A DNA stretch of 64,000 nt from Rhizobiales bacterium 62-17. GTDB taxonomy: Bacteria > Pseudomonadota > Alphaproteobacteria > Rhizobiales > Beijerinckiaceae. Shown in pieces: positions 14,083 through 18,138 of this stretch; the first letter of the stretch is position 1, and every line of letters starts with the position of its first letter. The stretch spans positions 681,440 to 745,439 of the forward strand of contig MKVW01000003.1 in assembly GCA_001898965.1 (NCBI GenBank). The letters run 5' to 3'. The translations under genes and the position numbers were made by a program. The notes beneath the pieces are model-generated. The model worked only from the letters and a program-made list of their open reading frames with translations. It ran no database searches and was not told where the DNA came from.

Positions 14083-15135
14083 ATGATTTTCGACAAGAAG
14101 AGCATCTGCGCCGCGCTGATCGCGGCTTCCGTACCCTTGTTTTCGACGGGAGAACTGTCGGCTCAGGAGCCTCCACCGCTGGCGATCAAGGACTTTGGAT
14201 CGTTTCATATCGGCGGCCGGGTCGTTGAAATTGCCGGGAAGCCCGTCAAGGAAGTCGCGCTCACACCGCACGGCGCGCCGGCCGTCATCGATCCGAATGG
14301 TCGCTACCAGGTGGAGCAGATGTACGTTCAGCATTTCACGCCCGCTGATGAGCGCGGTCGCGTACCACTGTTGATGTGGCACGGTGGTGGCCTCACTGGC
14401 GTGACATGGGAAACGACGCCTGATGGACGGCCGGGCTGGCTGCAGGATTTCCTGCGTCGCGGATGGAAGGTTTACAATTCCGACGCAGTGGAACGTGGCC
14501 GCTCCGGATGGGCGTCGCCTGACATATTCAAAGGCGATCCGGTTTTCCTGACCGTCGCCAATCCATTCGAGCGCTTTCGTATCGGCGAAGGACCTGGAGC
14601 GTGGAACGACGATCCAAGCAAGCGTCGCGTCCATGCCGGCAGCCTGTTCCCTATGAAAGGCTATGAGAATTTTACGCGACAGGTTGTGCCGCGCTGGACG
14701 ACGACGGACGAGGCCATTTTGAATGCCTACCGCGAACTGGTCGATAAAGTGTGTCCCTGTGTCTTGGTGTTTCATTCCCAAGGCGGACAATTCGGCTTCA
14801 AGGTGGCGCAAGAAAAGCCCGACAAGATCAAGGCGCTTGTCGCGGTCGAACCGGCCTCGGTGGGTTACCTCGGTCAGGAAGCAAAGCTCAAAAACATTCC
14901 GGTGCTGATGGTCTTCGGCGACTACATTGAAGTGGATCCGCGCTGGAAACGTATGCGCGAGACAGCCGGCCGTTTCGGCGATGCGATTTCAGCCGCCGGT
15001 GGAAATGTCGATATCTACGATCTGCCAAAGAGGGGGATTTCCGGAAATTCCCATATGATGATGATGGATAGCAACAGCAGTCAGATCTCTGGCATGGTTG
15101 ACGCTTGGCTCGCGACCAAGCAACTCAAGCGTTAG
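14083..15135 (+). CDS. Exported alpha/beta hydrolase/esterase
   Basis: A 350-residue protein with a signal peptide (KKSICAALIAASVPLFSTGELSAQ). LLMWHGGGLTGVTWETTPDG carries the HGGG oxyanion motif, VFHSQGGQFGF is the nucleophile elbow with catalytic Ser near residue 229, and GISGNSHMMMMDSN carries the probable catalytic His near the C-terminus. Proteins of this type are annotated as periplasmic esterases of the alpha/beta fold. GGAGGGAACAC precedes the ATG. It closes the operon 11400-15135 and overlaps the stop of the convergent GntR gene by 4 bp. Confidence 0.82.
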   Translation: MIFDKKSICAALIAASVPLFSTGELSAQEPPPLAIKDFGSFHIGGRVVEIAGKPVKEVALTPHGAPAVIDPNGRYQVEQMYVQHFTPADERGRVPLLMWHGGGLTGVTWETTPDGRPGWLQDFLRRGWKVYNSDAVERGRSGWASPDIFKGDPVFLTVANPFERFRIGEGPGAWNDDPSKRRVHAGSLFPMKGYENFTRQVVPRWTTTDEAILNAYRELVDKVCPCVLVFHSQGGQFGFKVAQEKPDKIKALVAVEPASVGYLGQEAKLKNIPVLMVFGDYIEVDPRWKRMRETAGRFGDAISAAGGNVDIYDLPKRGISGNSHMMMMDSNSSQISGMVDAWLATKQLKR

Positions 15136-15872
15136 GTGAGACGAACGCGATAGCGGAAGCGGTCGGATCGGCCATAGGCGCGCCGCCAATCGATCGGCGT
15201 GCCGTTGGTACCGAAGGAGGTGCGCTCGACGACGATCAGCGGATCGCCGGTCTTAACTTCAAGCAGGCGTGCCTTCACCACATCGGCCTGCCCCAGCGAC
15301 AGCTCGTCTTCGACCGAAGTCACCACTTGGCCGAAGGCACGTTCATAGACCGGGTAAAGCAGCGGGCCGATTTCGTGTTCGTCCATGGTGACGAAGGGCT
15401 CGAACAGCGGATGCGGCAGATAGAGGTCTTCGCAGATCACCGGCTTGCCGGCCCAGAGCCGCAGACGCAGCACACGCACCACCTTGGCGCCCTCAGGCAG
15501 GCGCAACCCACTGGCGATTTCCGGTGTCGCGTCCATCACCTCGCGCTCGATCAGTCGGCTTTCGGGAACCGTGCGGCCTCCGCCCGTCGAGGCATCCTCG
15601 AAGTTGAACCAGCGGAACAGCGAACCGTCGAAGGACGGCCGGCGGACGAAGGTGCCGACCCCCTGCTTGCGCTCCAGCAGGCCTTCACGCACCAAATGTT
15701 CGATGGACTTGCGCATGGTGCTGGTGGAGACACCGTACGCTTTGGCAAGTTCCTGCTCGGACGGGATGGCCTCGCCAGAAGCCCATTCGAGGGCAGCGAT
15801 GCGGGATGCCAGCGCATCGCGCAGCCGGGCATGCATGGGAAGACGATCGTCACTGGGCGGCAGCACTCTCAA
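15132..15872 (-). CDS. GntR-family transcriptional regulator, HutC/FarR subfamily
   Basis: A 246-residue regulator. The N-terminal winged helix (residues about 13-80, with AIPSEQELAKAYGVSTSTMRK and EGLLERKQGVGTFV) is the GntR DNA-binding domain; the rest is a UTRA-type effector domain (VVRVLRLRLWAGKPVICEDLYLP, DPLIVVERTSF). HutC-type regulators bind small carboxylates or sugar phosphates. It faces the catabolic operon 11400-15135 and is the likely repressor acting at the palindromes 11333-11372, although no copy of that operator was found before its own start. Confidence 0.9.
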   Translation of the reverse strand: MRVLPPSDDRLPMHARLRDALASRIAALEWASGEAIPSEQELAKAYGVSTSTMRKSIEHLVREGLLERKQGVGTFVRRPSFDGSLFRWFNFEDASTGGGRTVPESRLIEREVMDATPEIASGLRLPEGAKVVRVLRLRLWAGKPVICEDLYLPHPLFEPFVTMDEHEIGPLLYPVYERAFGQVVTSVEDELSLGQADVVKARLLEVKTGDPLIVVERTSFGTNGTPIDWRRAYGRSDRFRYRVRLT

Positions 15873-16005
15873 CTCCAGATGCGCGGCTCCACGGCCGGCG
15901 GAATGTCATAACCTGTGGTAGTGCATAGGACTGGCGTAAGACAAGATCGGCTCGAACGGTCGCCGCACGGCTCAGGTTGCAGGTTCTCCTAACTGCGCTA
16001 TCGCA

Positions 16006-16053
16006 TGAATTAATCTATCTATCTTTTTGATATTTAAATATAATTTATAAATG
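16006..16053. other. Very AT-rich patch upstream of 16127
   Basis: This 48-bp stretch contains only 6 G or C bases, with TCTATCTATCT and repeated TATTTAAATATAA-like steps, in a region otherwise above 60% GC. It lies just upstream of an EcfG-like promoter and 0.4 kb from a MucR-like gene; MucR-type and H-NS-like proteins favour such T-A-rich tracts. A binding role is inference. Confidence 0.5.
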
Positions 16054-16066
16054 ACTGTCGTTTCGT

Positions 16067-16093
16067 GGAACGACGGGCGCCTTCTCTCATTGA
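16067..16093 (+). promoter_or_regulatory. Candidate EcfG-like promoter of the 16127 gene
   Basis: GGAAC at 16067-16071, 16-nt spacer, CATTGA at 16088-16093, ending 33 bp before the ATG. The -35 matches the alphaproteobacterial general-stress sigma EcfG; the -10 (CATT) differs at one base from the CGTT consensus. The same GGAAC-N16-CATTGA arrangement occurs before the 16812 gene, which raises confidence. Confidence 0.5.
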
Positions 16094-16126
16094 TCGGATG
16101 ACAGCAACACGATCGGGAGAGCGACC

Positions 16127-16435
16127 ATGACGACCAAGTCGAAGACCGCCCCTGCATCTAGCAAGGCCATTTCCAAACCAACGTCAGGTTGGGCCGTCAG
16201 CGTGACGTTTCAGCCCGTGGACGGCGACGGTCCCGTGACGGAGGAGACGTTTTACGCCGCGATTGTCGATCGCGAGGAGGCGGAGAAAGCCGTCGCGCAA
16301 TTGGCGGGCGCGGCCGACGATGCCACCGTCAAGGCGGACAAGCGCATCAGCGCCGCCGAATTCGAGGACATGGGCTGGCATGCCGGCCAGGTCGAACAAT
16401 GGGTCGGCCCCAGCCTGGAAGCTCCGGGTTCCTAG
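16127..16435 (+). CDS. Hypothetical small acidic cytosolic protein
   Basis: A 102-residue protein with a Lys/Ser/Thr/Ala-rich N-terminus and an acidic body (VSVTFQPVDGDGPVTEETFYAAIVDREEAEKAV then AAEFEDMGWHAGQVEQWV). It has no signal peptide or membrane segment. GGGAGAGCGACC lies before the ATG, supporting translation. I do not recognise the family. An EcfG-like promoter lies upstream, so it may be a general-stress gene. Confidence 0.7.
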   Translation: MTTKSKTAPASSKAISKPTSGWAVSVTFQPVDGDGPVTEETFYAAIVDREEAEKAVAQLAGAADDATVKADKRISAAEFEDMGWHAGQVEQWVGPSLEAPGS

Positions 16436-16452
16436 TCAGCAATCTAAGGACA

Positions 16453-16680
16453 TCACTTCTTAGGTTTGCGGCCTTGCCGAAAAGCTAGTTTTGGCTTTCG
16501 CCCCCGCTTCGCCCGCCGTGTTTCAGACGCGGCCGGCGGCGGAGAAATCTGACGCTCGATCGTTGCGTAGATATTCGCAATCAATCCGGGCAGCTCTGAT
16601 TTGGGGATGCGGTTGTGGCCGACATAAGCGCAGGCCACGTCTGTGGTGAGACGCAGCAGTCTGTTGCGATCGAGGGTCAT
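16453..16680 (-). CDS. MucR-like mini-protein with AT-hook-like basic tail and no zinc finger
   Basis: The segment LLRLTTDVACAYVGHNRIPKSELPGLIANIY matches the N-terminal oligomerisation region of MucR/Ros regulators (LTADIVSAYVSNNxVPxxDLPxLI). In MucR this is followed by a Cys2His2-like zinc finger with KFKSLKRHL; here the protein ends instead with a basic tail holding RGRKPK and QGRKPKK, both RGR/QGR cores like the minor-groove loops of H-NS and Lsr2. Downstream sequence encodes no missing finger. The short form (75 residues, ATG at 16680) starts where MucR homology starts and leaves room for the opposing promoter at 16747; a longer form from 16770 is possible. Role as a nucleoid or silencing factor is inference. 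Confidence 0.72.
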   Translation of the reverse strand: MTLDRNRLLRLTTDVACAYVGHNRIPKSELPGLIANIYATIERQISPPPAASETRRAKRGRKPKLAFRQGRKPKK

Positions 16681-16746
16681 ACCCCTCGTACGTTGGTAAT
16701 CGGTCAATGGATCACTTGCACGGTCCAGCATCGTGGCATCGACGCC

Positions 16747-16773
16747 GGAACAACTCTCCAAGACCTGCATTGA
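16747..16773 (+). promoter_or_regulatory. Candidate EcfG-like promoter of the 16812 gene
   Basis: GGAAC at 16747-16751, 16-nt spacer, CATTGA at 16768-16773, ending 38 bp before the ATG at 16812. It is identical in both boxes and spacing to the element at 16067-16093. Confidence 0.5.
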
Positions 16774-16811
16774 CCTGACATCAGGGCGGCGAATGTCAGC
16801 GGAGTCAGCTT

Positions 16812-17234
16812 ATGAAGATGCTCTTGGTTGCCACGATGCTCTTTGCAGCATCTGCATCGCATGCCCAAGGCCCCAAGCCGGATACCGCTCCCGGAGGTCC
16901 TGCGGCAGGATCGACGGGACAGTTCGGCGCGCCCAATTGGCAGCCAGGCAAAGGCGGAACGGAAGGTGGAACCGCCACGGGCGATTTGACCAATAAGTCG
17001 ACGTCGCGTCTGTCGAGTGATGATCAGAAAGCCTTGCGTGCGACCATAGCCGCGAAAAAAATTCCGAGCGTCACCCTGTCAGACGTGTTCGCGCGCGGGA
17101 AGGATCTGCCCAAAGACATTCAAACCCACGCGATTGATAGCGACGCGCGCTACGGGACACTGCGCTTCGCGCACGTCAACAACCAATTCCTGCTCATCAA
17201 TAACAGCGGTACCATTGTCGAGGTCATCGACTAG
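16812..17234 (+). CDS. Exported DUF1236-like small protein
   Basis: A 140-residue protein with a signal peptide (MKMLLVATMLFAASASHAQ), a Gly/Pro/Thr-rich linker (residues about 20-65) and a C-terminal module of about 70 residues (SSDDQKALRATIAAKKIPSVTL, ending LLINNSGTIVEVID). The last part follows the DUF1236 pattern, in which a strand with V/L-rich residues closes with IVEVI. DUF1236 proteins are small periplasmic proteins of unknown role abundant in Hyphomicrobiales. Probably EcfG-controlled, given the promoter 38 bp upstream. Confidence 0.75.
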   Translation: MKMLLVATMLFAASASHAQGPKPDTAPGGPAAGSTGQFGAPNWQPGKGGTEGGTATGDLTNKSTSRLSSDDQKALRATIAAKKIPSVTLSDVFARGKDLPKDIQTHAIDSDARYGTLRFAHVNNQFLLINNSGTIVEVID

Positions 17235-17268
17235 GTTTGCTTCTTGCGGTGATGTTCGCTGGGATAGA

Positions 17269-17343
17269 TGGTGGGCGATGCAGGGATCGAACCTGCGACC
17301 CCTCCCGTGTGAAGGGAGTGCTCTCCCGCTGAGCTAATCGCCC
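17269..17343 (-). tRNA. tRNA-Val (anticodon CAC)
   Basis: A full cloverleaf on the minus strand: acceptor GGGCGAT / ATCGCCC, D-arm GCTC...GAGC, anticodon stem CTCCC / GGGAG with loop TTCACAC giving anticodon CAC, T-arm GCAGG-TTCGATC-CCTGC. The 3' end ACCA is encoded, so CCA need not be added. It reads GUG valine codons. Confidence 0.96.
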
Positions 17344-17427
17344 GGCGCTTGGCCGAATGCGGGCTATATCCTCCGGGCCACCCGCCAGTGTCAAGGCGAT
17401 CGACAGGTGTTCCGAAGGCAAATTCAA

Positions 17428-18138
17428 TCAGCTCGCAGAAAATCTCAGGTTTGCCACCGCATCCCAGAGCTGATCGAAGCTGGAAATCACCACATTCGGC
17501 TCAAAAGTCTCCACCGGCTGGTCGGTGTAGCCGAAATTAACCGCGACGACGGGCATGCCGGCTGCCTGGGCGGTGCGGATATCGGTTTTCGAATCACCGA
17601 TCATCACCGCATGGGCGGGATTGCCCCCGGCCCGCTCGATGGTGGCGCGCAGCACGCGCGGATCGGGCTTCATCACCGCCTTGCCATCGATATAGACCGA
17701 GTCCTGACCGCAAATCGCCTTGAAACGGTCGGTGATATCGAGCGCTTTCAAGAGCTTCAGCGACGCGTGCTCGACCTTGTTGGTGCAGACCGCGAAGATC
17801 CAGCCAGCCGCTTCGAACCGGTCCAGCGCCGCGACCAGCCCGGGAAACAGGTGCGATTCCTGGGCGATGCGCTTCTCGTAGACCTTCAGATAGTCGGCAA
17901 ACAGCTTTTCCAGCCGGTCCGGATCGAGTTTCCCGCCGCCTGATGCCGCAAAACCATGCTGGAGCAGGACACGGCCGCCGGCACCGACCATTTCGCGGCC
18001 GGCCTTGAGGCTGACGGGCGCCATGCCCTCGCGCTCCAAAATGGTGTTGAGCGCGCCGATCAGGTCGCCGGCGGTTTCCGCCAGGGTGCCGTCGAGATCG
18101 AAAACGAGGATGGGAGGCTTGGAAGGGGAGCTGGACAT
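17428..18138 (-). CDS. gph: Phosphoglycolate phosphatase Gph (HAD family)
   Basis: A 236-residue haloacid-dehalogenase-fold phosphatase. Motif I FDLDGTLAET is at about residues 13-22 with the nucleophilic Asp, motif II is VCTNK, motif III Lys in VMKPDP, and motif IV IGDSKTDIRTAQAAGM. The four-helix cap (residues about 20-90) and the GADI/GVNFGYTD-like segment (AVNFGYTDQPVE) are typical of Gph, which dephosphorylates 2-phosphoglycolate made by DNA end repair or by Rubisco. Closely related HADs can act on other sugar phosphates. Confidence 0.88.
   Translation of the reverse strand: MSSSPSKPPILVFDLDGTLAETAGDLIGALNTILEREGMAPVSLKAGREMVGAGGRVLLQHGFAASGGGKLDPDRLEKLFADYLKVYEKRIAQESHLFPGLVAALDRFEAAGWIFAVCTNKVEHASLKLLKALDITDRFKAICGQDSVYIDGKAVMKPDPRVLRATIERAGGNPAHAVMIGDSKTDIRTAQAAGMPVVAVNFGYTDQPVETFEPNVVISSFDQLWDAVANLRFSAS

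Follow-up and report, generated by a model that had tools for sequence, protein, structure and literature searches.

Within a 64,000-nucleotide stretch of the genome of Rhizobiales bacterium 62-17 (5.66 Mb in nine contigs), hereafter the window, we observed a short gene that encodes the N-terminal oligomerisation domain (NTD) of Ros/MucR proteins and a basic tail, and no zinc finger. We tentatively regard it as a genuine member of the Ros/MucR lineage without a finger, made up of a presumed ring-forming NTD and a flexible, strongly basic tail, whose product may join and alter MucR rings in the manner of H-NST; taken together, these statements have in our judgement a little less than an even chance of being right. 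The evidence of function is weaker for this gene than for a pair of related finger-less genes, L002 in the same genome (G000) and L005 in a sister species (G022), which are referred to below as the minis (Table 1).

Table 1. Coordinates of the finger-less gene, its parts, its neighbours and the two minis (window positions unless a locus is given).
Feature	Coordinates	Strand	Basis or remark
Finger-less Ros/MucR protein gene, 75 codons + stop	16453..16680	-	frame; PF05443 26.5 bits; custom NTD profile 45.1 bits
NTD (oligomerisation domain), residues 1-46, helices 5-22 and 27-45	16543..16680	-	predicted model; residue mapping
Basic tail, residues 47-75, with RGRKPK and QGRKPKK; no structure predicted	16456..16542	-	
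GntR/UTRA regulator	15132-15872	-	neighbour of the window gene
AT-rich island, located between the GntR gene and the 102-aa frame	15997..16067	.	one of the window's two islands that contain 48-mers with GC of at most 0.21
Convergent 102-aa frame, weak DUF6912 match below cut-off	16127..16435	+	frame list; Pfam
Divergent 140-aa frame, DUF1236-like C-terminus below cut-off	16812..17234	+	frame list; Pfam
tRNA-Val (cac), edge of variable patch	17269..17343	-	
HAD hydrolase	17428-18138	-	neighbour of the window gene
L002 mini (G000:C4), 58 aa, finger-less MucR NTD	L002 1594-1770	-	paralogue in the same genome as the window gene
L005 mini (G022, sister species), 62 aa, finger-less MucR NTD	L005 1486-1674	-	counterpart of L002

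The match of the window protein to PF05443 covers model positions 2-53 of 123 and leaves the finger part unmatched. It is borderline: against a cut-off of 25.4 bits, the 75-aa form scores 26.5 and the 105-aa form 25.3, so that the outcome depends on the start chosen, and a six-frame scan gives 24.0. Further in-frame ATGs lie upstream at 16731 and 16770, while in the alignment both minis start at the residue equivalent to the ATG at 16680. A custom profile of the NTD, for which 69 full-length MucR frames were used and the window protein and the minis left out, scored the protein at 45.1 bits, with an E-value of 7e-15 among the 24 translated frames searched. The zinc-finger-type DNA-binding domain (Cys-x2-Cys/Asp ... 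RHL) is absent from the protein, and a profile of the finger half found no match in any of the six frames of window positions 15000-18000 (best score -4.3 bits), so that no nearby frameshift conceals a finger. An earlier note, made from the sequence alone, had read this gene as a MucR NTD without its finger and had named a frameshift or sequencing error hiding the finger as what would overturn that reading; the reading holds, and a hidden finger is ruled out across these 3 kb. Searches with the window protein gave nothing among solved structures at E<=10 and nothing in NCBIfam at E<=1.

One may also consider that the frame arose by chance, or merely overlaps other sequence, and is no gene. In codon usage it scores a weak 0.02 bits per codon, a value undercut by 12 of 208 coding windows and equalled or exceeded by 276 of 1040 windows in a wrong frame, and no match to a sigma-70-like promoter was found in 16400-16900. 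However, the in-frame match to the NTD profile by itself largely refutes this explanation, and the NTD fold is predicted confidently, which makes a chance frame very improbable.

The fold was predicted with AlphaFold2 as a single chain, from an alignment of 40 sequences (the window protein, the two minis and 37 NTDs from full-length MucRs). The expected two-helix hairpin was obtained, with mean pLDDT per block of 83-95 across residues 1-50, followed by an unstructured tail (mean pLDDT per block of 64-70). This model agrees with the MucR NTD described in PMC11662661, where helices Asn3-Asn28 and Ala33-Glu55 are given within a ring of about 12 subunits, and where the NTD was modelled by the authors as enough for a 12-mer ring. 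According to our own motif alignment, five of the six Brucella MucR residues named in that paper have identical equivalents in the window protein (Y25, V26, L36, L39 and I40), the sixth, V22, being replaced by Ala. L36, L39 and I40, which are reported to be required for Brucella MucR oligomers (PMC6250670), are all three present. The window protein thus has the helical hairpin with hydrophobic oligomer residues that marks Ros/MucR proteins, and by homology its NTD would be ring-competent.

The tail had been viewed in the earlier note as an AT-hook-like module that replaced the finger, and only part of that view stands. The finger is indeed absent, and a basic tail carrying RGRKPK and QGRKPKK is present (net charge +11 over residues 47-75). 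AT-hook and Lsr2 RGR loops are likewise short motifs of the Arg-Gly-Arg type, although the window tail has no predicted structure and no match to PF02178 (AT-hook) at E<=1, a weak test given how short that model is. H-NS has a comparable AT-hook-like loop, QGRTPA (PMC5693944). Between the two copies of GRKPK every one of the five codons has a different third base, yet the amino acids are unchanged, which favours selection on the peptide or an independent gain and argues against a recent duplication of the DNA; when the last 28 residues were shuffled, any repeated 5-mer appeared in 662 of 200000 shuffles. No similar tail was found elsewhere in the genome (next-best E 1.6). Among 79 distinct full-length MucR frames, however, seven have a loose RGR-type tail after the finger, including L015 from the same genus and L066, L069 and L073 from elsewhere, though none of the seven has a double GRKPK, and in ordinary Ros/MucR proteins basic C-terminal residues already touch the minor groove (PMC11662661). 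The parts of the tail are therefore native to the MucR family and the finger is what is missing, so that loss of the finger is a better description than a swap of modules. More simply, the tail would be a kept or elaborated MucR tail left behind after the finger was lost.

The tract of 12.5% GC at 16006-16053, pointed out in the earlier note, is present as described. The sister genome G022 likewise has a tract of 12.5% GC upstream of GntR, and lacks the window gene there; hence the tract is not evidence for the window gene, and the idea that it is the protein's own target is unsupported. In G022 the interval between GntR and the HAD hydrolase holds other genes in place of the window gene, while the flanking proteins are 88-95% identical, and the window gene therefore sits in a variable patch. 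When window positions 15873-17427 are set beside L122 7064-10836, gene content differs between the two close species, whereas an AT-rich tract and a tRNA-Val are common to both; the tRNA-Val of the L122 interval lies in a different place and in opposite orientation. Insertion of an island at the tRNA-Val was considered and rejected, as the tRNA 3' end (22 bases, up to three mismatches) does not occur a second time in the window. A phage origin was rejected for want of a phage match, and a plasmid origin was likewise rejected, the single plasmid match being weak and to an annotated MucR. The L005 mini matches 16 plasmid records, and a full-length MucR frame was seen in all four of the 16 that were examined. 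Scans of genome contigs and viral contigs gave no confirmed relative.

These observations bear on the possibility that the window protein is a silencer that acts without full-length MucR. Its basic tail and its NTD, ring-competent by homology, fit this explanation, the avidity of some 12 tails could stand in for a folded DNA-binding domain, and the AT-rich tract is only 0.4 kb away. Nevertheless, some full-length MucRs carry a tail of this type as an addition, the two minis have no such tail, the AT-hook model does not match, and G022 keeps its tract upstream of GntR where the gene is missing. A silencer acting on its own is therefore improbable, though clearly less so than a chance frame.

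The survey for other finger-less forms proposed in the earlier note was carried out with PF05443 and gave 63 matches in 51 genomes of the genus, 93 in 45 genomes of the family and 130 in 41 genomes belonging to the genus of G351. With G000, G005 and G351 counted once, this amounts to 279 matches in 134 genomes; one broken gene can yield two matches in this count, and an order-wide search (397 genomes) and the genus of G268 were kept apart from it. Matches to the NTD only, in a closed frame, were few: the window gene, L002 (G000:C4), L005 (G022) and, less clearly, L140 of another genus (G456:C4:26735-26830), for which Pfam gives 24.3 bits, below the cut-off, and the NTD profile 41.2 bits, and which has no finger in its 10 kb. 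Finger-less MucR forms are thus rare, and L002 and L005 lack the RGR tail. A counterpart of the window gene was looked for in the other 50 of the 51 genus genomes, and none was found; of the 51, 30 are near-complete. The remaining partial matches either belong to genes at the ends of contigs or close to them (G017, G451, G452 twice, and G502) or cover the finger half or C-terminal end only (G468, G507, G522, G527 and G456:C1), and broken mucR genes were seen in G534 and G513. In G534:C6:110229-110589 there are two matches, one to the NTD half and one to the finger half, which overlap and lie in different frames, as after a frameshift, and G456 has a C-terminal-only match (L142, G456:C1:2084206-2084337) apart from the NTD-only frame L140. 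In the order-wide search, at least 133 of 142 sampled genera match an NTD profile made from the minis. Two further observations concern the family at large: among the matches listed for the genus of G268 the PF05443 count per genome reaches 29, and in several full-length MucR copies of the family Ser replaces the first Cys of the finger.

Both L002 and L005 lie just downstream of an autotransporter gene on the same strand, with gaps of about 70 bp and 90 bp respectively, and the autotransporter and the mini are possibly on one transcript. The autotransporter was recognised by a Pfam match in L002, and the copy in L005 is 88% identical. Over 46 codons, L002 and L005 differ with dN 0.19 and dS 0.95, and 17 of 37 changes are nonsynonymous against 27 expected (binomial P 4e-4); since these are fewer than chance would give, it follows that two species have retained a MucR NTD protein that lacks the finger. 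The pair is under purifying selection, yet evolves faster than the adjoining autotransporter (dN 0.065, dS 0.69). Nonsynonymous changes between the window gene and each of the two minis are also under chance expectation (P 0.017 and 0.004), counts that do not date the constraint. Downstream of position 1597 of L002 (minus strand), the same frame read through a TAG and a TAA gives, by eye, a C-x2-C-x9-H-L string; the PF05443 match of L002 continues past the two stops to position 81, where the custom finger profile gives no score.

A tree of NTDs, built on 45 columns and with unsettled bootstrap, groups L002 and L005 together with L069, a full-length protein (99/86); the window protein, on a very long branch (2.69), stays unplaced. 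Its starred branches require three changes of the mini label, a number that is unsure because long branches are involved; on that tree the finger was likely lost in separate events.

The main rival explanation is that the window frame is the non-functional leftover of a mucR paralogue that lost its finger by deletion or frameshift. That the gene is found in one genome, within a variable patch and on a long branch, would agree with decay, as would its weak codon usage, and broken mucR genes are known, both in the family (the G534:C6 and G456:C1 cases above) and in S. fredii, whose MucR2 is reported to have a frameshift (PMC8857273). On the other hand, a decaying copy does not readily account for the absence of any finger remnant from every frame of 3 kb, for the retained hydrophobic core of the NTD or for a GRKPK repeat that has changed only synonymously, and the L002/L005 pair is a second finger-less form that is maintained between species. 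We consider decay rather unlikely, while giving it more weight than a silencer that acts alone.

The best explanation that we can offer, still somewhat under an even chance, is that the window protein joins and alters MucR rings as an H-NST-like subunit, and it may thus be a natural modifier or antagonist of MucR. It is favoured by the NTD match, the two-helix model, the retention of L36, L39 and I40, the selection on the L002/L005 pair, the low nonsynonymous counts between the window gene and the minis, and the synonymously changed GRKPK repeat. According to PMC11662661, MucR silences through rings that carry numerous DNA-binding domains and by which AT-rich DNA is bridged. MucR paralogues can pair, as indicated by the MucR1/MucR2 heterodimers of Caulobacter cited in PMC5693944. 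The genome also encodes a full-length MucR (L001), so that, as with H-NST, an oligomerisation domain without a DNA-binding domain is found together with the full-length silencer. If expressed, the window protein would most likely enter mixed rings with L001, where finger-less subunits would leave fewer zinc-finger arms per ring, and MucR bridging and silencing might in consequence be weakened or redirected, with the (R/Q)GRKPK tail perhaps making loose contact with the minor groove; a mode of action of this kind has been proposed for H-NST on H-NS. H-NST itself consists of the H-NS oligomerisation domain alone and antagonises H-NS (PMC7074111), and it binds DNA aided by two C-terminal arginines (PMC3897749); similarly, silencing of the prophage by CgpS is relieved when a truncated N-terminal form of that protein is overexpressed (PMC7074111). 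Several points count against the mixed-ring explanation, namely the single genome, the weak codon usage, the long branch, the V22 to Ala change and the lack of a promoter match, and also that the best case for purifying selection is the L002/L005 pair, whose tails have no RGR motifs.

Compared with known Ros/MucR proteins (PF05443; Brucella MucR, S. meliloti MucR1 and M. loti Ml5), the window protein shares the NTD hairpin, the oligomer residues and a basic C-terminal arm, but has 75 aa rather than about 140 and no finger domain; M. loti Ml5 does without zinc but keeps the folded domain, which the window protein lacks altogether. H-NST, a short H-NS homologue from E. coli islands, likewise consists of nothing but the oligomerisation domain of a silencer and carries basic residues at its C-terminus, but it belongs to the H-NS lineage, the likeness seen being one of architecture, and antagonism has been tested for H-NST. 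The nearest case in the open-access literature is that of S. meliloti MucR2 and MucR3, atypical paralogues reported to bind DNA without bridging and suggested by the authors to modulate MucR1 (PMC13297338); these retain DNA binding while their ring is lost or weakened, whereas in the window protein the ring domain is retained and the finger is missing. In the open-access literature (PMC) we found neither a finger-less MucR nor a natural NTD-only MucR antagonist.

MucR is the H-NS-like silencer of Alphaproteobacteria. A more general, and more doubtful, proposition is that these bacteria have NTD-only MucR anti-silencers that poison or retune rings and that arose more than once in the family, as an RGR-less, autotransporter-coupled form kept in two species and as a double-GRKPK form that would work through finger-less minor-groove binding or mixed rings. 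If real, the window protein would be a ready dominant-negative tool against MucR, and a protein of this kind would show how acquired genes evade MucR silencing.
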